DNA of 56,429 nucleotides from Bacteroidota bacterium (GTDB taxonomy: Bacteria; Bacteroidota; Rhodothermia; JANXDC01): the NCBI GenBank assembly GCA_025059945.1, contig JANXDC010000006.1:1-56429 (forward strand). Reading direction: 5' to 3'. This document shows, piece by piece, positions 4,533 through 51,646 of this stretch; the stretch's first letter is position 1, and every line of letters starts with the position of its first letter. The position numbers and the translations under genes are program-made. The notes under the pieces are model-generated. The model did not search any database and had not been told where the DNA came from. It was given only the letters and a program-made list of their open reading frames with translations.

Positions 4533-4973
4533 GTGCTCATCCTGCACACATACAGCCCAGAGGAGAGCCGCCGTCTAGGCCGGGAGCTGGCTCTGCGGTT
4601 GCGTCCCGGTGACGTTGTGGCCCTGTACGGCGAGCTGGGTGCGGGCAAGACGTGCTTCGTCCAAGGGGTGTGCGCGCAACTGGGGGTACGGGAGCCCGTC
4701 ACGAGCCCCACGTTCACCTTGGTGCACGCTTACCAGGGAGAGAGCCTTCCGGTGTATCATCTGGACCTGTATCGGCTCGCAAGTCTAGAGGAGCTCTACG
4801 AGCTGGGCTATGAGGACTACCTGTATGGGGAGGGGGTCTGTCTGATTGAATGGGCCGATCGGATGGAGCCGCTCCTGCCAGAGGCCGCTTGGCGTGTGCG
4901 CCTGCGCTATGGTGAAGATCCCCAAGAGCGCATCGTAGAGCTTACGCCGCCGCCTGAGCGGGGTTGGGGATGA
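4533..4973 (+). CDS. tsaE: tRNA threonylcarbamoyladenosine biosynthesis ATPase TsaE
   Basis: TsaE is the P-loop ATPase that helps the TsaB-TsaD complex make the t6A modification of ANN-decoding tRNAs. The 146-residue length is normal. The Walker A motif GELGAGKT is at residues 33-40, followed by the family motifs VTSPTFTLVH and HLDLYRL. A GTG start at 4533 abuts the rnhA stop, with GAGGAG about 8 bases upstream inside rnhA. Its TGA overlaps the ATG of the next gene, so the three genes look like one transcript. TsaB and TsaD are not in the window. Confidence 0.93.
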   Translation: MLILHTYSPEESRRLGRELALRLRPGDVVALYGELGAGKTCFVQGVCAQLGVREPVTSPTFTLVHAYQGESLPVYHLDLYRLASLEELYELGYEDYLYGEGVCLIEWADRMEPLLPEAAWRVRLRYGEDPQERIVELTPPPERGWG

Positions 4974-7750
4974 GGTGTTGGCGTTGCCAGGCTATCCTGG
5001 AGGGTAACGCGCCCCTTAGCTGTCCCTATTGTGGGGCGAGGTGTTCTGCGCCTGAGGCCTTGCCGGCCGGCGCGCAGCTCAAAGGGGGTGTCTACCGGAT
5101 AGAGGCCGCCAAAGGCGGGGATGCGGTAAACCTGTGCTACGAGGCCGAGCACCTGCCCAGCGGCCGTCGCGTGTGGATACGGGAGCTCTTGCTGTCCGCT
5201 TGTGTGCTCGGTCGGGGTCCCGGTGCGGAAGTCCAGGTGCGCCCAGAGCGCGAAGAGCTGTGGTTTAAGGCATACGATCGATTTCGCCGGGAAGCGGAGC
5301 TCTTGCTGCAAGCGCGTCACCCGAGCTTGCAGCTGCTTATCGATTGGTTTGAAGAACGGGGCACCGTCTATCAGGTCCTCGAGCCTCCCCCAGAGGGGGC
5401 AAGCCTATGGACCTTGTTGCGTGAGCATCCCCTAGGAGGCGGACTAGAGGAGGCGCTCGTAGTCTCCTGGTTGTTGCAAATAGCCGAGGGACTGGAGAGC
5501 CTGCATGAGCTCGGTTGGTTGCATCTGGATCTGCGGCCAGAACAAGTGCACATTGGACCGGATCGGCGCGCCGTGCTTCTGGGATATGCCGGAGCACGCC
5601 GGATGATCGAGCTCTACCTAAATGCACTCTCCGCCGATTTCTTTACCCCGCCTGAGCTGCTTACGGGTCGTGAGCTGAGCCCCGCAGCCGACGTCTACGG
5701 ACTGGCCCTTGTGGGCGCAGTGGCCCTGCTGGGCTTTCGCTGGCTAAAGAAGCGGGCGCGTCCGGAGATCGCCGAGCTGGAGGAGGCCTTCTCCGATTCC
5801 CCCTGGCGTTCTGTTTTACGCGCCGGCCTAGAGCCGAACCCCAGGGCGCGTCCCCCCCGGGTCTCCCTCTGGGTCCGAAACGTCCCCCTAAGGGCTATGT
5901 TGTGGGGAACTTCCCCCGCCGCTGGGTCGGATGGACCCGCGAAGCTGGGTACGAGGAGCATCTGGGGGCAACATGTAGCCGCCATAGAGGCGCTGGCCTG
6001 GCATCCCCGGGGCGGACGTTGGGCCACAGCCGGTGCCGATGGCACAGTGCGGCTCTGGGATCTGGATCCGCTTGGCTGTCGAGCCGTTTTACGCAACCCA
6101 TCTGGACCCGTTCTCAGCCTAACCTGGGAGCCCGATGGAGAACACCTGCTCACCGGGGGTCTTCATCAGAGCGCAGAATCCGAAAGCGAGTTTTGCGGGG
6201 AGCTGCGCCGCTGGCGTCTTGCTGACGGGACGTGTGTCGAGGTGGTACTCGCTCATCGGTACTCGATAACGGCCCTAGACTGCTCCCCCGATGGGCGTTG
6301 GCTCGCTACGGGAGGAGGAGATGGACGGGTCGGTATATGGAATCGGGAGCATCTGGAGCCGCTTCGCCTGCTTGCGGGACACGGGCACGTGGTCGGAGTT
6401 GTGCGCTTCTCCCCGGATGGTCGATATCTGGCCTCGAGCTCTTGGCACGCCGATCTGGCGCGCCAGTGGGTGCGCGGGGAGGTGCGGATCTGGGAGGTTT
6501 CCTCTGGCCGCTGTGTGCGTATTATTCGTGCTCACGACCGAAACATCTTGGATATGGCCTGGCTCGATGGGGGAGCCTGCATCGCCTCAGCCGGCTTAGA
6601 CGGTCGGGTGCTCATCTGGGACTGGCTCCACGGCGTGCAGAAGCAGAGCCTCACCGTCCATCGAAATGGCCTTGTCAGTTTAGATCTCTCTCCCGACGGC
6701 CAGCTGCTTGCGGCCGCAGGCGAGGATGGGCGATTATACCTTTGGAACGTTCCGCAGGGGCGGCTGCTGCGGCAGTTATCCGGTCATACGGCTACCCCCT
6801 GCCGGGTGCGATGGTCGCCTAAGCCGCAAGAAGGGCTGCTATCGAGCGATGAACGGGGGGACCTGCTTTACTGGGATCATTTCCGTCAAACTGCTCAGCT
6901 TCTAGGAGGGGGTCTACCTAGTGTGCGCGGCCTTGCCTGGGAGCCCGGAGCAAGGCGCATCTGGATTGCCGGGCCCTATGGGATCGAGCGATGGCGCTAC
7001 CCCGAAGGACTCTGGGAGAGGAGCCTTTGGCATAGCGAGCGCCCCATCTTGCGGCTTGTGCCCCATCAGGGGGGTACGCTCCTGGCCATCGTGCTTGAGC
7101 AGGAAGTGCAGATTTGGGATAGCCGAGAGCATCGCCGAGTGGGTGTTTTCTCCCTGGAGGCAGATCCTTCGTGTCTAGTCTGGTCCCCGGAAGGCCGATA
7201 TCTGGCTGTAGGCAGGCGTGAGGGGGGTCTGGTTGTGCTCAATCCCCTTACGGGTCGTCCGCTGTTGGAGGCGTTTAGGGGCGAACCGGTATACGCGTTG
7301 GCCTGGCATCCGGAGGCTGCGCTGCTGTACGTAGCTTTTGGCAATGGATCCCTGTGGCAGCTTGCGCTCGATTCGTCATCCCCGCATCCGATAGGGGCCC
7401 AGGAGCATCCGATTCGGTTTCTCGTTCCCCTCTCTAGACCCGACCATCTCCTGACAGCTGACCAACGAGGAGCTTGGCGAGTGTGGAATATAGCCTCCCG
7501 CCGGGTCAGTGCCCCCGTTGTGGCGCATCCCGAGGGGGCGATCACGGCCCTCTGTGTCTGGGGGCGGACCCTCTATACGGGCAGCGAAAAAGGCCAGATC
7601 CGCGTTTGGAACTGGGGGGATAGGCAGCTATACACGGAGCTTAAGGGTCATAACGGCGCCATTACCGTGCTCATGCCCGATCCAGAGGGGGGAGGGCTCT
7701 TCTCCGGGGCCGAGGACGGTGATGTGCGGTACTGGGTTCCTCTGCCATAG
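4970..7750 (+). CDS. Zinc-ribbon, serine/threonine pseudokinase and 14-blade WD40 protein
   Basis: A 926-residue fusion starting at ATG 4970, which overlaps the tsaE stop (ATGA). Residues 3-25 carry four cysteines in two CxxC pairs (CWRC, CPYC), a zinc ribbon. Residues 40-310 have the layout of bacterial Ser/Thr kinases, but the VAIK lysine is Arg71, the catalytic loop reads HLDLRPEQ (Asp187 kept, Lys to Arg189, Asn to Gln192) and the DFG motif is Gly205-Tyr-Ala. It is therefore probably a pseudokinase. From about residue 330 I count 14 WD-type blades ending in forms such as VRLWDL, VGIWNR, VRIWEV, VLIWDW, LYLWNV and IRVWNW, enough for two seven-blade propellers. No transmembrane segment is evident. 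The likely role is a cytoplasmic scaffold; partners are unknown. Confidence 0.85.
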   Translation: MRCWRCQAILEGNAPLSCPYCGARCSAPEALPAGAQLKGGVYRIEAAKGGDAVNLCYEAEHLPSGRRVWIRELLLSACVLGRGPGAEVQVRPEREELWFKAYDRFRREAELLLQARHPSLQLLIDWFEERGTVYQVLEPPPEGASLWTLLREHPLGGGLEEALVVSWLLQIAEGLESLHELGWLHLDLRPEQVHIGPDRRAVLLGYAGARRMIELYLNALSADFFTPPELLTGRELSPAADVYGLALVGAVALLGFRWLKKRARPEIAELEEAFSDSPWRSVLRAGLEPNPRARPPRVSLWVRNVPLRAMLWGTSPAAGSDGPAKLGTRSIWGQHVAAIEALAWHPRGGRWATAGADGTVRLWDLDPLGCRAVLRNPSGPVLSLTWEPDGEHLLTGGLHQSAESESEFCGELRRWRLADGTCVEVVLAHRYSITALDCSPDGRWLATGGGDGRVGIWNREHLEPLRLLAGHGHVVGVVRFSPDGRYLASSSWHADLARQWVRGEVRIWEVSSGRCVRIIRAHDRNILDMAWLDGGACIASAGLDGRVLIWDWLHGVQKQSLTVHRNGLVSLDLSPDGQLLAAAGEDGRLYLWNVPQGRLLRQLSGHTATPCRVRWSPKPQEGLLSSDERGDLLYWDHFRQTAQLLGGGLPSVRGLAWEPGARRIWIAGPYGIERWRYPEGLWERSLWHSERPILRLVPHQGGTLLAIVLEQEVQIWDSREHRRVGVFSLEADPSCLVWSPEGRYLAVGRREGGLVVLNPLTGRPLLEAFRGEPVYALAWHPEAALLYVAFGNGSLWQLALDSSSPHPIGAQEHPIRFLVPLSRPDHLLTADQRGAWRVWNIASRRVSAPVVAHPEGAITALCVWGRTLYTGSEKGQIRVWNWGDRQLYTELKGHNGAITVLMPDPEGGGLFSGAEDGDVRYWVPLP

Positions 7751-9352
7751 CCCTAAATATCCGCGAGGCCCCTCCAGAGGCGACGGTTCCGGGATGCGAT
7801 ATACCACCCATGCGCTATTCGCATACGCTATAGGCAGCTCAAGCGGGCGCCCTTCTTGAGCGCGCTGGCGCACGACGTATCGGACCCCATAACGGTCGGA
7901 AAGCTTGCGCCAGTCCGTCTCGTTGAGCTCATGATAGCCGCGGTTCATAAGGGGCTCTAACGCATATCCTCCGCGTCGGGGCCGGCCAATGCGTGTAAGG
8001 GCCTGTAGACGCGCATACCACTCCAGCATAGCGCGATCCAGGTACGGGAAAGCGGGGAAGTTCACCACCGTAGCCCGTTGCGCCATCGTGCGCCACCGGC
8101 TCTCAAAAGGCGGCACGGCGAAGATCGCCTCTCTTTCCGTCTGCGTTCGCGCCCAGGCGCACAGGGCCTCGAAGGCCGCATCCGGCGGTCCGGCAATGGC
8201 CAGGCGGGCCCGCCAGAAGGGGCTATTCTGGTTTGCGAGCGTCCACGTCCATGCGGTCAGTCCGGCTGCGAAGGTCGCGATCGCCCATCCTGGCCAAGCC
8301 CGTAGACGGTAAAACGGCCCGGGAAGCGCGCGCCAGAGCCCGTGCGCCGCGTAGGCCACGAGCAATGGGGGGACGAAAAGCGAGAGCTTAAACCACTGCA
8401 TGCGGGCCATGGGCAGCCATTTTAGCCCGTCGACCGCGATCCAGGATGCGATCCAGAGGCATCCGGACCAGCCCAGAAAGCGTCCGATTATGTGCTCTCG
8501 AGCCGGCCGCGCTCCAAAGGCGCGCGCCAGGGCGGCCCCCAAAAGCAGCAGGCCGAACTTAGCCCATTGCGCGGGGGGAAAAGCCGAGGCCAAGTAGTGG
8601 TGGGGGTTGCGAAAGACCGCGAGGATGTAGAACAGGTCCGCCTCAAGCCCCGGCGCGCGCCAAGCCTGCTGGGTGCGCCAAAGAGGCCACAGGACCGGCG
8701 CGGCGGCGGCGAGCACGCATAGACCGAAGATGAGCCCCTGAAGCAGCCGTCGTGCGCGATCTAGCGGGCCACCCGTAAGCAAGCTCAAGGTGAGCACCGC
8801 CCCCACCTGCAGCCCCACGAGGGGTTGCCACCAGCTGGCTAGTCCGATCAGAGGGGCGGCCCAAGGCCAACGGCCTTGCGTAAAGAGCGCCAGCCCTGTG
8901 AGGGCCAGCGCCACGGCTGGCATCTCGGGCACGAGCATCGAATAGGCGAGCCGGTTGCCCCCCAGCGTGAAGGTGAGCGCACCCCAGAAGGTGAGCGCCG
9001 TCCCGATATAAGCCACGGCAGCGGAGCCCCAGAGCGCGCGCAGCCACCGCCACAGCGCATCGGCAAGCCACAGGAAAACGAGCCCATACAGCAGGGCCAC
9101 CGCTATGGGAAGCGGCATCCAGCGGCCCAGAGAGGCGAAAAGCCGAATGATGAGCTCCCGAACCCCGCAAGCCTCCGCGTATAGCCCGACGAACCAATCG
9201 CTCTTAAGCAGAGCCGGATCCAGGCGATGCAGCACAACGGGCAGCCATTCGTCCTGGTCCGCCCAGCCGTAGGTGTAGCCGAATCGGGCCACGAAGCCCC
9301 ATAGCAGCAGCGCAAGAAAGCCCAGGTGTCCGAGCCGGCGAACCCAGATCAT
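7628..9352 (-). CDS. Multi-pass inner-membrane protein, possibly GT-C-like
   Basis: A 574-residue protein with about ten hydrophobic segments in the first 410 residues and a soluble C-terminal domain. It starts at ATG 9352 (MIWVRR), with GAGGGG upstream, 8 bases from the amidase stop; the longer frame upstream lies inside the amidase gene. The acidic motif QDEW in the first external loop and the polytopic plan recall GT-C glycosyltransferases and DUF6798-type proteins, but I cannot assign a substrate. The last 41 codons lie antisense to the final WD40 blade of the converging gene. It is probably cotranscribed with the amidase gene. Confidence 0.65.
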   Translation of the reverse strand: MIWVRRLGHLGFLALLLWGFVARFGYTYGWADQDEWLPVVLHRLDPALLKSDWFVGLYAEACGVRELIIRLFASLGRWMPLPIAVALLYGLVFLWLADALWRWLRALWGSAAVAYIGTALTFWGALTFTLGGNRLAYSMLVPEMPAVALALTGLALFTQGRWPWAAPLIGLASWWQPLVGLQVGAVLTLSLLTGGPLDRARRLLQGLIFGLCVLAAAAPVLWPLWRTQQAWRAPGLEADLFYILAVFRNPHHYLASAFPPAQWAKFGLLLLGAALARAFGARPAREHIIGRFLGWSGCLWIASWIAVDGLKWLPMARMQWFKLSLFVPPLLVAYAAHGLWRALPGPFYRLRAWPGWAIATFAAGLTAWTWTLANQNSPFWRARLAIAGPPDAAFEALCAWARTQTEREAIFAVPPFESRWRTMAQRATVVNFPAFPYLDRAMLEWYARLQALTRIGRPRRGGYALEPLMNRGYHELNETDWRKLSDRYGVRYVVRQRAQEGRPLELPIAYANSAWVVYRIPEPSPLEGPRGYLGLWQRNPVPHITVLGPGEEPSPLWIGHEHGNGAVMTLKLRV

Positions 9353-9359
9353 GCGCCCC

Positions 9360-11087
9360 TCACCGGGCCTGGGCCATAAAGCGCGGCGGGTGCCGCCGAT
9401 GGAAGTCCGTGGCGTCCTGGTAGGCCATGGCCAAGCTGAGGAGCTCGACTTCACCGAAGAGCTTCCCGATAAACGTGATCGAGGTGGGGGTGCCGTCTTC
9501 GCGGAACCCGTTGGGCAACACCACGCAGGGGTGGCCCGTAAGGTTGGTGAGCAGCAGCGTGCCGCCCCCGAAGCTGGGCGAGACCACCACGTCCAGCTCC
9601 TCGAAGACTCGGGCGGTCTCTTCGATTAAGCGCGTACGCAGCCGATTGGCCTGCACGTATTCCACGGCCGGGATCAGGCGGGCATACCGGAACGTGTTGG
9701 GCCAGGTGTTTCGGCCCTGACGCCTCATCTGCCGGATGCGCCCGTCTCGGGTGATCTCGTCAAAGGCCGCGGCCGCCTCCACGTCCAGGATAAACCGGAG
9801 GGCCTGCACCGGCAGATCGGGCCAGGAAACCGGAACGAGCTCTAAGCCCAAGTCCTGGCGTAACACGCGCAGCGTCTCCTCGTCGAAGCGTTTGTTCGGA
9901 TAGTCCGCCTCGAAGGCTTGGGCCAGGTATCCTACGCGAAGCCTGCGGTAATCAGGCCGCCGGTCCCAATCGAAGGCCGCCTCCACAACCGAAGGGTCTC
10001 GACCGTCCGGGCCTTGAATAGCCGCCAGCACGAGGGCGCAATCTTCGACCGAGCGGCAGATGGGGCCGAGTTTGTCCATGGACCAGGACAGGGCCATGGC
10101 CCCATAGCGGCTAACGCGCCCGAAAGTGGGGCGCAGGCCCGTGGCGCCGCAGCGGCTAGAGGGGGACACGATCGAGCCCAGCGTTTCGCTGCCTACGGAG
10201 AAAACCAAAAGCCCTGCTGCTACGGCCGCGGCCGAGCCGGCGGAGGAGCCGCTAGAGCCCTGCTCGGGGTTCCAGGGGTTGCGCGTCGTGCCTCCGAACC
10301 AGACGTCACCCCAGGCTAGCTCCCCAAGCGTAAGCTTGGCCACGAGAACGGCCCCGGCTTGGTGCAGCCGCTCGACTACCGTGGCGTCGTAATCGAGGAT
10401 CTGATCTCGATAAAGGCCTGTGCCCCAAGTGGTGGGGATGCCTTTTGTGGCCAGCAGATCCTTGGCGCCCCAGGGGATCCCGTGCAGGGGGCCTCGATAT
10501 TGGCCGGAGCGGATTTCCCGGTCGGCCTGTCGGGCCTGCTCTAGGGCCAGCTCCTCGGTCAGTGTAACCACGCATTGCAACACGGGGTCATAACGTTTGA
10601 GCCGCTCCAGATACATGCGCGTGAGGGCCTCGCTGCTTACGCGTTGGCTCCGCAGCAGGGAGGCCCATTGGGCGATCGTCAGAAAGGCCAGGTTTTCCAA
10701 GTCCGAGGGCACCTCCACCGGCGCCACGGGGCGGGGCCGGGGACGACGGTTAGGCGGACCCGTTGGACGGGGCACCCGAAAGCCGCGGGGCAGGGGGTTG
10801 AAGACCAGCGCAGGGGGCGTGGCGTTTTCGAGCCGTACTTGCCGCAGGCGCTCATAGGCTTGCTGCAGGTTCTGCAGGTCTTCGAGCATGAGCGCGCGCT
10901 CTTCCTCGGTAAAGGAAAGCCCGGCCAGTTCGGCAGCGGCCTCAAGGTGAAGCTTGGTTATGGGGCCACGCCCTTGGGTTTGCGCCCACAACAGGCCGGG
11001 AAAAAGCGTGCCCGAAAGCCCCAAGAGGCTGAAATAGCCCATAAATTGGCGACGATCAAGCGGAAAGCTTTTCATAGCAGGTTTCAT
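9360..11087 (-). CDS. Exported amidase-signature family hydrolase
   Basis: Amidase-signature enzymes hydrolyse amide bonds with a Ser-cisSer-Lys triad. The triad is visible: Lys in HGIPWGAKDL, the cis-Ser region in GSSGSSAGSAAAVAA, and the nucleophile Ser in GSETLGS. The N-terminus has a twin-arginine-like signal (LDRRQFMGYFSLLGLSG), so it is probably exported folded. A Pro/Arg-rich linker at about residues 100-128 separates an N-terminal helical part from the amidase core. Length is about 575 residues. The start is uncertain: ATG at 11087 or 11075 (a TTG at 11093 is also open), none with a strong ribosome site. The substrate is unknown. The membrane protein gene follows 7 bases downstream. 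Confidence 0.85.
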   Translation of the reverse strand: MKPAMKSFPLDRRQFMGYFSLLGLSGTLFPGLLWAQTQGRGPITKLHLEAAAELAGLSFTEEERALMLEDLQNLQQAYERLRQVRLENATPPALVFNPLPRGFRVPRPTGPPNRRPRPRPVAPVEVPSDLENLAFLTIAQWASLLRSQRVSSEALTRMYLERLKRYDPVLQCVVTLTEELALEQARQADREIRSGQYRGPLHGIPWGAKDLLATKGIPTTWGTGLYRDQILDYDATVVERLHQAGAVLVAKLTLGELAWGDVWFGGTTRNPWNPEQGSSGSSAGSAAAVAAGLLVFSVGSETLGSIVSPSSRCGATGLRPTFGRVSRYGAMALSWSMDKLGPICRSVEDCALVLAAIQGPDGRDPSVVEAAFDWDRRPDYRRLRVGYLAQAFEADYPNKRFDEETLRVLRQDLGLELVPVSWPDLPVQALRFILDVEAAAAFDEITRDGRIRQMRRQGRNTWPNTFRYARLIPAVEYVQANRLRTRLIEETARVFEELDVVVSPSFGGGTLLLTNLTGHPCVVLPNGFREDGTPTSITFIGKLFGEVELLSLAMAYQDATDFHRRHPPRFMAQAR

Positions 11088-46513: not shown

Positions 46514-48658
46514 CTAAAACGCCCATCGAATCCCCAACTGCGCCGTCCGAGGGGTGCCCACCAAAATACCCCGGCTGCGGTCGACGATGTAAAGCGCATC
46601 CGTTAGGTTTTTGACCGCACCGCTTAAGCTCAGCCCCCGAATCGGCGTGCGGTACTCAAGCGCGAGGTTCCAAAGCCAATAGGCCGGAATCAGGCCCTGC
46701 CGGCCGTTGGGGGTGGGCTCGAGTGTGTTGAGATCATCGGAGAACTGGGCGCTTACGTGCGAAAACTCAAGCCCCAGCTGCAAGGCGCTTCGGAGCGCAA
46801 CCCACAGGCCGGCCTCCAGAAGGTGTTCAGGCGCATACGGCAGCCGGTTGCCCGTGATGCGCACGCGCGGGTTCAAGATGCTATAGCGCTCGCCTACGTA
46901 CTGGGCCACCGGTAGGTACGTATAGGCCAGATGAGCCGAGACGGGGGCCAGGGCCGCGCCCAAGAGCGCGCCCGAAAGCCGTGCTGAAAGCTCTAGACCG
47001 GCATGCCGGGTGCGCCCGGCGTTCGTGAGCACACTCGTTATCCCTCCGGCCAGGGAGGCGGGGATGATCTGGTTTTCGAAGTCCAACCTGAAGGCCGTAA
47101 GCTCAAATCGCAACCTTTCGGTCCGCTGGTAGCGCAATCCGAGCTCTGCGTTCCAGCTTAGCTCCGGATCCAGCTCCACGCTTAGCCCTTCATTGGTGAT
47201 CGCGTCCTCGACCCGGGGCGGGGCAAAGCCCCGATGCAGGCCGACAAAGATCGTCCAGCCCGAGGCCGGCGCATACGTCAGGCCCATTCCGGGCACAAAG
47301 GCCCACAGGCGCGCGCGGCCGCTTGATCCCAAACCCCGGTTGCCGAGCTGGTTGACGCGGCGATACCGGACGGCCTCCAGGCGCGCCCCCAACGTCAGGA
47401 CCCAGTCGCTCCACAGGATGCGATCCTGCAGGAATCCGGAATAAGCCCACGCGTAGCGGTCGTTGTCCTCCACGATCGTTCCCGTGCGCGCCCCTGGAGC
47501 GTCGCCCCGGATCTGATAGCGGTGCTGAAATTCCTGATGATACCGCAGGCCCAGATCCAGTTCGTGCCGTAAGGCCATCGTGCGTCCGCTGTGATGCAAG
47601 CGCAGCTCCTGGCCCAAGACCTCATAGTGCCGCAGCCGGCCGTCGTTGCGGTTCGGGCTCGGTATAACCCGCACGCCCGGATAGTTACCCGGATCGGCGG
47701 AGTTATCCTCCGTCACCCACTGGCCGTTTCGCCACACGAGCGTGCCCTGGCGCCACCAGTGCCGATCGATCACGTACCCGTAGCTGTTGCTGAGCACCAT
47801 CCAGCGGCCCCCCAGGGGTTGCTGATAAGCCAGGTGCGCGCCCAAACGCTTGACCCGGAAGTTATCGTCTCGAAAGGGGTTCTGATATGGGTTCTCCTCA
47901 AATTGAGCCTGCGTTAGGCCCGGATAGGTCACCTGCGAGTTCTCCCAATAGGCGTTGAGCTTGAGCACGACACGCCCGAGCCCGTCGGTGCGCTGCACAG
48001 CTTTGACCGTAAGATCGGTTATCCGGCTAAAGGTGTGCTCGCGGTTGAGCCGCCCGCGCCTGTGCAGCACGTCGAGCAGAAACCCGCTAGCCCCCCCGGC
48101 CCAGGTGCCGCCATACGTAAAGTGGGCGTTCGCGTAGGCGCGCGTGCCACCCGAAAGACGCAGCTGCCCGCCCAAAGGGCCCTCGGGCAGGCGCGTAAGA
48201 TAATTGATCACGCCGCCGATCGTCTGCGGTCCATACAGGATCTGAGCAGCCCCTTTGAGCACTTCAATCGAGGCAAACCGATCTAGAGGGGGATGATAGT
48301 ACGTGGCCGGATCCCCGTAAGGGGCCAGCGTAAAGGGGACCCCGTCCTCCAGGAGCAAGACTTTGGTGCTGCGCGTAGGCGGGAGGCCCCGAACCCCGAT
48401 GTTCGGACGCAACCCGAAGCCCTCCTCCGGCCGCACATACAGACCGGGCACGGTGCGCAGCACCTCCTCCAGACTTATCGGCTGCAGCGCCGCTATCCAC
48501 CGGGCCGAAACCAGGGTGCCGGAGCCCGCAACGGCCCGAAGGGCCGACTCCGCATCTCCGATGATCGTAACAACCGGCAGGGCTTGACCCTGCAAAACGG
48601 GCTTGGGTAGGCTGTCGGAGACGACGAGCAGACCTAACAAGAATCCCAGCGCCGCCAT
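46514..48658 (-). CDS. TonB-dependent receptor, FecA-like
   Basis: A 714-residue outer-membrane receptor with a signal peptide and a plug domain at about 50-165 (EVLRTVPGLYVR, GVRGLPPTRSTKVLLLEDGVPFTLAPYGD, IEVLKGAAQILYGPQTIGGVINYLT), as in the ferric-dicitrate/FecA subgroup. The 22-strand barrel ends in a terminal aromatic residue. It would import ferric siderophore-type ligands using TonB energy. It has its own promoter and terminator, and I saw no clear Fur box. Confidence 0.9.
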   Translation of the reverse strand: MAALGFLLGLLVVSDSLPKPVLQGQALPVVTIIGDAESALRAVAGSGTLVSARWIAALQPISLEEVLRTVPGLYVRPEEGFGLRPNIGVRGLPPTRSTKVLLLEDGVPFTLAPYGDPATYYHPPLDRFASIEVLKGAAQILYGPQTIGGVINYLTRLPEGPLGGQLRLSGGTRAYANAHFTYGGTWAGGASGFLLDVLHRRGRLNREHTFSRITDLTVKAVQRTDGLGRVVLKLNAYWENSQVTYPGLTQAQFEENPYQNPFRDDNFRVKRLGAHLAYQQPLGGRWMVLSNSYGYVIDRHWWRQGTLVWRNGQWVTEDNSADPGNYPGVRVIPSPNRNDGRLRHYEVLGQELRLHHSGRTMALRHELDLGLRYHQEFQHRYQIRGDAPGARTGTIVEDNDRYAWAYSGFLQDRILWSDWVLTLGARLEAVRYRRVNQLGNRGLGSSGRARLWAFVPGMGLTYAPASGWTIFVGLHRGFAPPRVEDAITNEGLSVELDPELSWNAELGLRYQRTERLRFELTAFRLDFENQIIPASLAGGITSVLTNAGRTRHAGLELSARLSGALLGAALAPVSAHLAYTYLPVAQYVGERYSILNPRVRITGNRLPYAPEHLLEAGLWVALRSALQLGLEFSHVSAQFSDDLNTLEPTPNGRQGLIPAYWLWNLALEYRTPIRGLSLSGAVKNLTDALYIVDRSRGILVGTPRTAQLGIRWAF

Positions 48659-48708
48659 GTGGGTGTGCTCCTTGTTTCTTATTTAGACTCAATCCAAATT
48701 AGTAAACG

Positions 48709-48739
48709 CAAAGGTAACCTTTCTGGCCGTGCGGCGCAA
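48709..48739 (-). promoter_or_regulatory. Promoter of the FecA-like gene
   Basis: On the minus strand TTG, 20 bases, TACCTTTG, a full match to TAnnTTTG, 50 bases before the ATG. Confidence 0.65.
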
Positions 48740-48786
48740 CCGGTGCGGGCTGGCTCGTTTGCGGATGCGTCGGGTGTGGTCTTCGC

Positions 48787-48818
48787 TTGATCGAGTAGCG
48801 CTCGTTCTGCTAGCTTGT
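48787..48818 (+). promoter_or_regulatory. Promoter of the carboxypeptidase-domain TonB receptor gene
   Basis: TTG at 48787, 21 bases, TAGCTTGT at 48811-48818, 26 bases before the ATG. Confidence 0.45.
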
Positions 48819-48844
48819 GCCGGCTTCAGGGAAGGAGGGCGGTC

Positions 48845-51646
48845 ATGGTCGCTTTGCTGTTTTGGTTTCTGGTGCCCGTCTGGGCGTGGGCGCAGACGAC
48901 CACGGTCGTTTTGGAGGGTCGGGTCTACGGCGCCGAGGGCCGGCCCTTGCCGAATGCCGAAGTCCTGGTTGTGCACAAGGAGACGGGCCAGCAGCGGGGG
49001 GCGGTGACGGATTCCGAGGGCCGTTATCGGATCCTGGGGCTCGCCCCGGGGCTATACGACGTCATGGCCCGGCATTTGGGGTACCGGACCGAAACGCGTC
49101 TGGATGTGCAGCTCGTCCTGGGCCAGCGCGCCGTATTGGACTTCAGCCTTCGGCCCGAGGCCGTGCAGGTCGGCCAAGTTGAGGTCGTGGGCCAGCGCGT
49201 GGGCTCCTTTGAGGTGCGGCGCGTGGACGTCTCGATACCCGTGTTGCGCCAGGAGATCCTCAACTTGCCCCTGGATACGCGCAACACGATGAACCTGGCC
49301 GCGATCGCCCCGGGGATCCGCACCTACGCCACGATCGGCGGTCGGTCTCTGCCCTCGGCCGGGGCTGTACCGGATCTGCGCTTCATCAACTTGTACGTCG
49401 ACGGATCGGAGTGGAAGAGCCTTTTTAATGGCAACATCGTGGGCATCCCCCAGACGGGCTCTCCGTTGCCCCCAGAGGCGCTGCAGGAGTTTCGCGTGTA
49501 CCTGAACTCCTATGACGCGGAATACGCGCGCGGGGGCGCCTATATCATCAGCGCCATTACGCAGCGCGGCACAAATGCGCTCGAAGGTTCGGCCTTCCTC
49601 TACTACCAAAACAAAGCCTTGCAGGACATCAACGACTACCAGCGCCAACTGCGCGCCCAGGGCACCTTCAAGCGGCCGGATTTTTACAACCGGCAGCAGG
49701 TGGGCCTGAACCTGCGGGGTCCGATAGTGCGGGATCGGCTCTTCTTCGCCCTAAACTACGAGCTGGGCCGCACGATCAACGCCGTCGAGGTCAGCCCGGG
49801 AAGGCCGGCTTACAACCCCGATCTGTGGAGGGCGTATGCCGGCTGGTTCCCCTCGCCCTTTTACAATCACACGGGCGTGCTGCGCCTTACGTATCTGCTC
49901 AACGGCCGGCACACGCTGGACGCCACTTGGGCGAGCCGGTATCACGAAAACGAATCCTTTTTCGGCGGCACCGTGGCCCGCGATGCGGGCTTGCGGGCCC
50001 GGTATTTCATCAACTCCGTGCAGCTGCGCAACACCTGGATCCCGCGAGCGGATTTCATGAACGAGCTCACGTTGCATTTCCTGTCCTGGTATCACAACGA
50101 ATCCCCTCTGGTGCCGGGCCCTACGCTACAGTATCCGAGCCTGCTCGTACGGGGCCGCAACAACCTGTTCCCGCTTGTGATTTTGGAGCAGTACTTTCGA
50201 CTCACCAACAAGGCCACGTACGTGGCCCAACACAGCAGCGGTCAGCACACGCTCAAGGCCGGTCTGGAGCTGACGCGCGTCGTATCCGAGCCGTACCGAA
50301 CGGCCTTTCGCGACGGATTTTTCGTCTTCGCCACGGACACAAGCCGCCTGCCCCGGCAGGCCACGATCGCCGTGGGCTACACGGACCCCAACTCGGACGT
50401 CGACGCCCGGGTGCGCCAGAGCGGGTGGGTGGTGGGCGCTTACCTGAACGACCAGTGGCAGCCCACGCCGCGTCTAATCCTGAACGTCGGCCTGCGCTAT
50501 GATGCGGACATCCACACGCTCAATCAGCGCTTCCGGGCCCCGTGGGCGCAAGATCCCGAGCTTTTGAGCAAGATCCCGGAGTACCTCAATACGGGAGACC
50601 GCAAAAACGACCTCGACAACTTCTCCCCCCGGCTTTCCCTCTCTTGGGACGCCCTGGGAACGGGCCGGACGTTTTTGCGCGGGGGCTTCGGGGTCATGTA
50701 CGATCGGGTGCCCAACTTCATGGCCTTCAACGAAAAACAGGCCGCCACCTGGCGCACGTACACGTTCCTCAATCCGGGCACCCTGGACGTGGCCGTCCTG
50801 CGCCAGCGCGTGCTTCAGGGGCAAGCGCCGGCGGGCACGCTGTCGATTACGGTCATCAAAGACCGCATGCGCACCCCGGAGATCTGGCAGTACTCGATCG
50901 GACTGGGCCATCAGCTGAGCCCCGAGCTGGCCCTGAACGTCGATTACACCGACCAGCGGGCCCGCAATCTGTATGTGCAGCTTAACCTCAACCCCTTGAA
51001 GCCCAGCACGCGCACTCGACGCCTGACAAGCCGCTACGGCGACATCCTGGCTTGGGACGATTTCGGCCGGGCCCGCTATCGGGCCTTCATCGCTAGCCTT
51101 ACCTACCAGAGCCGACCTGTGCGGTTGAACCTCGCCTATACGCTGGGTTGGGCTCAGGCGGATTTCGACGGGGTCACGCCCCCGGCCTATCCGGAGCGCA
51201 GCTCGTATCGGCTGCAGCGCCTGGCCGGCGAGGAGCGCCACCGGCTTGTGCTTTCCGGCATCGGCCGACTGCCCTATGGCTTTCAGCTCTCTGGCATCGT
51301 GATCCTGGCCAGCCCGCGGCCCTTTGGCGTGATCGACGGTCGGGATCTAAACGACAACAACACTACCGTCGACGACTGGCCCGACGGGGTGCGCACCATG
51401 ATGCCGCCGGCGGAGTGGGCCTACTGGTATCGGACCGTGGACCTGCGCCTGTCTTGGTCCCGTCCGTACCGGGGAGCCCGCCTTACGCTGAGCGCCGAGG
51501 TCTTTAACCTCTTCAACTGGACCAACTACTCGGGCTTTTTCGGCACCCGCTACGATCAGCGCGGAAACCCGCTGGCCAACTTCGGCCAGCCCAACGGCAC
51601 CTTCGCCCCCCGGCAAGGGCAACTCGGGCTGCGCGTAGAGTTTTAA
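48845..51646 (+). CDS. TonB-dependent receptor with N-terminal carboxypeptidase-like domain
   Basis: A 933-residue receptor starting at ATG 48845 with GGAGG upstream; the signal peptide is MVALLFWFLVPVWAWAQ. Residues about 20-100 form a carboxypeptidase-regulatory-like beta-sandwich (VVLEGRVYGAEGRPLPNAEVLV, RYRILGLAPGLYDVMARHLGY). The plug follows (NTMNLAAIAPGIR, GGAYIISAITQRGTN) and then a large barrel. It resembles OmpA/Oar-like receptors of Bacteroidota, involved in nutrient uptake or protein export. No SusD partner follows it. Confidence 0.88.
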   Translation: MVALLFWFLVPVWAWAQTTTVVLEGRVYGAEGRPLPNAEVLVVHKETGQQRGAVTDSEGRYRILGLAPGLYDVMARHLGYRTETRLDVQLVLGQRAVLDFSLRPEAVQVGQVEVVGQRVGSFEVRRVDVSIPVLRQEILNLPLDTRNTMNLAAIAPGIRTYATIGGRSLPSAGAVPDLRFINLYVDGSEWKSLFNGNIVGIPQTGSPLPPEALQEFRVYLNSYDAEYARGGAYIISAITQRGTNALEGSAFLYYQNKALQDINDYQRQLRAQGTFKRPDFYNRQQVGLNLRGPIVRDRLFFALNYELGRTINAVEVSPGRPAYNPDLWRAYAGWFPSPFYNHTGVLRLTYLLNGRHTLDATWASRYHENESFFGGTVARDAGLRARYFINSVQLRNTWIPRADFMNELTLHFLSWYHNESPLVPGPTLQYPSLLVRGRNNLFPLVILEQYFRLTNKATYVAQHSSGQHTLKAGLELTRVVSEPYRTAFRDGFFVFATDTSRLPRQATIAVGYTDPNSDVDARVRQSGWVVGAYLNDQWQPTPRLILNVGLRYDADIHTLNQRFRAPWAQDPELLSKIPEYLNTGDRKNDLDNFSPRLSLSWDALGTGRTFLRGGFGVMYDRVPNFMAFNEKQAATWRTYTFLNPGTLDVAVLRQRVLQGQAPAGTLSITVIKDRMRTPEIWQYSIGLGHQLSPELALNVDYTDQRARNLYVQLNLNPLKPSTRTRRLTSRYGDILAWDDFGRARYRAFIASLTYQSRPVRLNLAYTLGWAQADFDGVTPPAYPERSSYRLQRLAGEERHRLVLSGIGRLPYGFQLSGIVILASPRPFGVIDGRDLNDNNTTVDDWPDGVRTMMPPAEWAYWYRTVDLRLSWSRPYRGARLTLSAEVFNLFNWTNYSGFFGTRYDQRGNPLANFGQPNGTFAPRQGQLGLRVEF

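Follow-up and report, generated by a model that had tools for sequence, protein, structure and literature searches.

Bacteria have numerous pseudokinases, most of which have no known function. A 2025 review (PMC12599244) describes DYD pseudokinases with an arginine at the β3 lysine, no αC glutamate and a retained catalytic-loop asparagine, and DLHK pseudokinases in which the HRD aspartate and the catalytic-loop asparagine are retained and VAIK and DFG are lost; it also presents EssB/YukC as a bacterial pseudokinase that acts as a scaffold, not as a catalyst. According to PMC5587647, Cyanobacteria and Planctomycetes frequently encode WD40 proteins that carry kinase domains, and Npun_R6612 of Nostoc (2ymu) has 14 repeats forming two WD40 domains. 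The WD40 domain of PkwA is given as one seven-bladed propeller (PMC6113231). Here, we analyzed a gene of a Bacteroidota bacterium (class Rhodothermia, assembly GCA_025059945.1) that joins a kinase fold without key catalytic residues to a long series of WD40 repeats. It lies at 4970-7750 of a stretch of 56,429 nucleotides, contig JANXDC010000006.1, hereafter the window. With moderate confidence, we interpret its product as a cytoplasmic, non-phosphorylating binding scaffold, gained in its lineage as a one-gene insertion.

The gene runs from an ATG at 4970 to a stop at 7748-7750 as a single open frame of 926 amino acids without internal stop, which agrees with the full-length frame reported in an initial annotation made from the letters alone. 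Its features are as follows.

4970..7750, forward strand: pseudokinase gene with a proposed double WD40 propeller, 926 amino acids (open reading frame and translation, Pfam)
4976..5035, forward strand: four-Cys N-terminal motif (CWRC...CPYCG), probable zinc ribbon (sequence; Pfam matches below cut-off)
5081..5914, forward strand: kinase-fold domain, residues ~38-315 (PF00069, AlphaFold2, Foldseek against PDB)
5171..5188, forward strand: VAIK position, VWIREL, with Lys to Arg71 and Ala to Trp69 (alignments)
5522..5545, forward strand: catalytic loop HLDLRPEQ (185-192), with Asp187 retained, Lys to Arg189 and Asn to Gln192 (alignments)
5576..5596, forward strand: DFG position, LLGYAGA (203-209), with Asp to Gly205, Phe to Tyr206 and Gly to Ala207 (alignments)
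5966..6880, forward strand: WD40 repeats 1-7, first propeller, approximate (PF00400 stretches, repeat model, strands in the structure model)
6881..7747, forward strand: degenerate WD40-like repeats 8-14, putative second propeller, approximate (repeat model mostly near shuffle level, moderate structure model, best PDB match 2ymu)

The Hanks-type kinase assignment is firm. PF00069 scored 56 bits (E 5e-15, matched residues 100-263) against a cut-off of 31.7, and the AlphaFold2 model obtained from a 55-row alignment reached a predicted local distance difference test (pLDDT) value of 77.7 and a predicted template-modelling score (pTM) of 0.79. The poorly modelled regions of this part were the N-terminal Cys stretch and residues ~265-289. 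Foldseek matched the model to PknA/PknB, Aurora and PpkA in PDB, with target template-modelling (TM) scores up to 0.80. PpkA (5hnv) was also the best PDB match by sequence (E 5e-11, aligned over residues 30-249), and its Lys and Asp face the replaced positions of the 926-residue protein in the alignment. The kinase fold that had been annotated was thus recovered by both the domain search and the structure prediction.

Lost residues were assessed against 54 aligned intact kinases from other bacteria. The β3 lysine of VAIK is Arg71 in the window protein (K in 53 of 54 kinases), and Trp69 replaces the VAIK alanine two positions ahead of it (A in 53/54). In the catalytic loop, the HRD arginine is Leu186 and the lysine is Arg189, at positions where 53 or 54 of the 54 kinases carry the reference residue, and the asparagine, found in all 54, is Gln192. 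The DFG motif reads GYA at 205-207 (D in 54/54, F in 53/54 and G in 54/54 kinases), and the conserved glycine-loop columns 51, 53 and 56 are altered. Glu108 of αC, His185 and Asp187 of HRD, and the Pro and Glu of the APE region are retained. Among the residues of an active kinase, the HRD Asp is therefore present, and the VAIK Lys, the catalytic-loop Asn and the DFG Asp are absent. A kinase fold that has lost the VAIK Lys and the DFG Asp is by definition a pseudokinase, and the initial description of Arg71, HLDLRPEQ and the missing DFG Asp (Gly205) was confirmed against the 54 kinases. We ruled out an alignment artefact, since two alignments, a third with PpkA and a fourth of 54 rows all place the same residues at these sites. 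At the residue level, these replacements show a predicted kinase fold without canonical ATP (adenosine triphosphate) and metal chemistry, and the domain would not be expected to catalyze phosphotransfer.

The WD40-like region covers residues ~333-926 and matches PF00400 and many WD40 propeller models. Nine PF00400 stretches pass in this C-terminal part, and four of six places exceed the curated cut-off taken singly. We also scored the region with a WD40 model built from relatives, against 100 shuffled copies (best shuffle, 3.0 bits). This model places matches at 14 successive positions with a spacing of ~42 amino acids; repeats 1-6 score 10.8-32.6 bits, and repeats 7-14 score -3.9 to 5.6 bits, only two of these (5.6 and 3.1) beating the shuffles. 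The structure model of the repeat part, from four alignment rows, is moderate (pLDDT 69, pTM 0.54), and its best PDB fold match is 2ymu, over 607 alignment columns at 20% identity. Because repeats 7-14 are weak, the count of 14 rests on the ~42-residue spacing, reading by eye, the strands of the model and the match to a 14-repeat PDB entry. The first propeller is clear. Two rings of seven, as the initial annotation suggested, are the best reading of the modelled part, with the second ring probably degenerate, but remain unproven: the 14 positions stand, with strong scores for the first six and scores mostly at shuffle level for the others.

At the N-terminus, Cys 3, 6, 18 and 21 have the CxxC-x11-CxxC spacing that had been annotated as a zinc ribbon. 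No zinc-ribbon Pfam model was above cut-off for this motif (RUBY_RBDX, E 0.11; Zn_ribbon_3, E 5.3), and AlphaFold2 modelled the stretch poorly (pLDDT 47-50). Given the sub-threshold matches and the poor model, we consider metal binding by the four cysteines plausible at most.

A Pfam search of the genome yielded one PF00069 match, which is this gene, and all six PF00400 matches lie in it as well. FHA and PP2C_2 were undetected in this genome and in that of its congener, other phosphatase and phosphopeptide families not having been searched, and neither PF00069 nor PF00400 had a match in the congener. Across the class, a PF00069 match with E up to 1e-3 was found in 210 of 244 genomes, above cut-off in 188; the kinase-less state is therefore that of a minority, and not rare.

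Whole-protein searches found one copy in the genome itself and no orthologue among 60 relatives, where separate WD40 or kinase pieces matched at 24-43% identity among the matches listed. Exact peptide patterns gave no orthologue in 84,980 species genomes. Of 72,556 plasmid records, 280 match, none with one place covering at least 80% of the query, and a profile scan of genome contigs, which may miss distant fusions, revealed no orthologue among the matches listed. The kinase part, its own match aside, retrieved 37 matches from the 244 class genomes with E no higher than 1e-10 (32% identity for the best-scoring one) and 7 from 394 phylum genomes at 1e-16 (30-33%). Orthologues beside tsaE with the same residue losses, as sought by the initial annotation, were consequently not found, nor did any orthologue with an intact active site turn up to mark the gene as a single degenerate allele.

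In the phylogeny, the window kinase falls on the IKEY side of the tree (support 100/95). Its end branch, at 4.06 changes per site, far exceeds the median end branch of 0.44, which makes its finer placement untrustworthy. Sisterhood was neither shown nor rejected by the approximately unbiased (AU) test, either with another kinase, L041 (p 0.343), or with the four-Cys kinases (p 0.145). L041 (G163:C3:2096675-2100370) has an intact VAIK and Gly loop, HLD for HRD and GFG for DFG, and has in common with the window protein the changes of the HRD Arg to Leu and of the DFG Asp to Gly. A motif table of 34 class relatives, assessed by reading, has Arg at the VAIK Lys in 7, no HRD Asp in 10 and no DFG Asp in 9; pseudokinases are therefore not unusual in the class. 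Ten kinase-like proteins from ten class genomes group in a single clade (100/100) and lack the HRD Asp; most have a VIREY-like sequence for VAIKEY, and several end in repeats that are TPR-like by eye. From these features, the clade looks like a conserved pseudokinase family. The window kinase lies outside it in the best tree, and a position inside it was not rejected (AU p 0.244).

The surroundings of the gene were compared with those in the congener, the one further species of the genus represented in the searched genomes. Two neighbours matter for this comparison.

4533..4973, forward strand: tsaE, upstream neighbour (PF02367, E 9.9e-42; 4-base ATGA overlap)
7628..9454, reverse strand: convergent membrane-protein gene; its last ~40 codons lie antisense to the pseudokinase gene

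Positions 1-55773 of the window are collinear with one stretch of the congener at 70-82% identity. Between 4934 and 7768, the window has 2,833 bases and the congener 110, so that the pseudokinase gene is exactly the gap and the sole gene-sized piece missing from the congener in the collinear stretch. Near 48.6-48.9 kb (window 48581-48936 vs 48552-49486 of the joined stretch), the congener is longer by 579 bases. For 9 of 10 outgroup homologues of the convergent gene, the alignment stops at query residue 532-541 and leaves tails of 0-12 amino acids; the tenth (G023) is aligned to 513 only and has a 43-residue tail. The convergent protein ends at ~554 in the congener and reaches 586 in the genome under study. 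Judging from these ends, the convergent gene has lost its ancestral stop and run on antisense to the pseudokinase gene. This run-on supports an insertion here rather than a loss in the congener. That the pseudokinase gene reached or formed in this lineage after the split from the congener, by insertion of a single gene behind tsaE, is thus supported, not proven. The GC content at third codon positions is 0.66, at the low end of the range of 32 neighbouring frames (0.66-0.83), and codon use is not odd; a gain, if it was one, was therefore not fresh.

Under our interpretation of the protein as a binding scaffold, the kinase fold, its canonical ATP and metal chemistry gone, would be a rigid platform for binding, and partner proteins would be held by the pair of WD40 propellers and by the probable zinc ribbon, a role that such folds have elsewhere. 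Since the Pfam search detected no further Hanks-type kinase in the genome, the scaffold would have no active one in its cell to steer. Several observations weigh against this interpretation. The 48 columns with at least 90% conservation divide into 25 retained and 23 lost, and the losses affect 9 of 13 catalytic versus 14 of 35 other conserved positions, a difference that is not significant (Fisher p 0.11); retention at columns 42, 49 and 104-109 was favoured, since the search patterns required them. Glu108 and Asp187 are retained, although a pure scaffold does not need them. Nor was any orthologue found that could have revealed purifying selection. The length of the kinase end branch is also what decay would give, and the direction of the insertion rests on one congener and the run-on of the neighbour.

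The rivals, in falling order, are decay, another chemistry on Asp187 and a link to TsaE. As a decaying remnant, the gene would have been acquired as a kinase-WD40 fusion, would since have lost its kinase function and would still be open by chance or through its first propeller alone. Its presence in one of the two genus species searched and the very long kinase branch are in line with this, as are the degeneration of the second propeller and of many non-catalytic conserved positions and the failure of the PF00069, FHA and PP2C_2 searches to find partner enzymes in the genome. However, 926 codons are open without a frameshift, codon use is close to that of neighbouring genes, the first propeller is crisp and the kinase fold still models well. 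Overall, we judge decay somewhat unlikely.

We find it quite improbable that the kinase fold supports a different chemistry, such as metal-independent ATP binding or the transfer of AMP (adenosine monophosphate) or glutamate, by means of Asp187, Glu108, Arg71 and Arg189. Trp69, in place of an alanine conserved in 53 of 54 kinases, is expected to crowd the adenine pocket, the glycine loop is altered at the three columns named above, and neither metal ligand is left, with Gln192 and Gly205 in their places. Asp187 and Glu108 are nevertheless retained, and the 2025 review proposes ATP binding in DYD pseudokinases, with Arg at the β3 Lys, and in DLHK pseudokinases, via arginines; it also points to SelO and SidJ, in which the fold carries out new chemistry (PMC12599244).

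The gene had also been described as translationally coupled to tsaE, a gene of N6-threonylcarbamoyladenosine (t6A) synthesis. The TGA of tsaE overlaps the ATG of the pseudokinase gene (ATGA), and rnhA, directly ahead of tsaE, has the same direction as both; no Shine-Dalgarno-like sequence stands out by eye upstream of the pseudokinase gene. The overlap may couple the translation of the two genes, and by itself it shows no shared task. The tsaE of the congener, 71% identical, stands without the pseudokinase gene, and no relative of that gene was present within 1.5 kb on each side of tsaE in seven other class genomes, which leaves the t6A link unsupported. The overlap and the shared direction speak for a protein that acts with TsaE in t6A synthesis or regulates it, a role that is very improbable in view of these tsaE genes standing alone. 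On the scaffold interpretation, the gene would be expressed with rnhA and tsaE by position, not function. A role in anti-phage defence was considered and set aside: what PADLOC matches is the generic kinase and repeat portions, no search aimed at defence genes nearby having been made.

A wider proposal is that the whole Hanks-type kinome of the organism consists of one pseudokinase, and that a lineage in which no further Hanks-type kinase, FHA or PP2C_2 protein is detectable acquired a kinase fold and retains it solely as a double-propeller scaffold, or as an enzyme with a different chemistry on Asp187; we regard it as unlikely. A lone pseudokinase, with no active Hanks-type kinase detected, removes the usual reading as an allosteric partner, and the choice between scaffold and new chemistry is cleaner to test in this single protein. 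If the gene is merely decaying, it is ordinary.

Compared with known systems, the window protein has the order of PkwA-type fusions (Thermomonospora curvata PkwA), kinase first and WD40 at the C-terminus in one chain. In contrast to the single propeller reported for PkwA, it has 14 repeat positions and a kinase without catalytic residues. The initial annotation noted that active kinase-WD40 fusions are known in bacteria, and fusions with intact VAIK, HRD and DFG occur in the class itself: in two class genomes, such proteins carry a single propeller, a membrane segment by eye and a C-terminal domain that is SPOR-like by eye, ends unlike those of the window protein. The solved 2ymu chain, of 577 residues, has the size of the propellers alone. 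Near-identity among its repeats is reported (PMC6113231), whereas those of the window protein diverge and the second set is degenerate. By sequence, the closest proteins are four IKEY-type kinases of the class that start with a four-Cys motif (30-33% over the kinase) and have intact active sites; in the two whose sequences were read, two CxxC pairs precede the kinase, as in the window protein, and the C-termini are of other sequence without WD40.

The active site resembles that of DYD pseudokinases in the Arg at the β3 Lys, and differs in keeping Glu108 and in losing the Asn (Gln192), going by the description of this family in the review. With DLHK pseudokinases, as outlined there, it has in common the retained HRD Asp and the loss of VAIK and DFG, unlike them having Gln192 for the Asn. 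EssB/YukC is a membrane protein of a secretion system, and PMC12599244 mentions no WD40 for it; that text contains neither WD40 nor propeller. In a literature search by titles and abstract openings, which is not proof of absence in print, we found no bacterial pseudokinase-WD40 fusion described. The combination was not met in our literature searches, and every part of it is of a known kind: PMC5587647, PMC6113231 and PMC12599244 between them report kinase-WD40 fusions, bacterial pseudokinases that serve as scaffolds and propeller proteins of 14 repeats.

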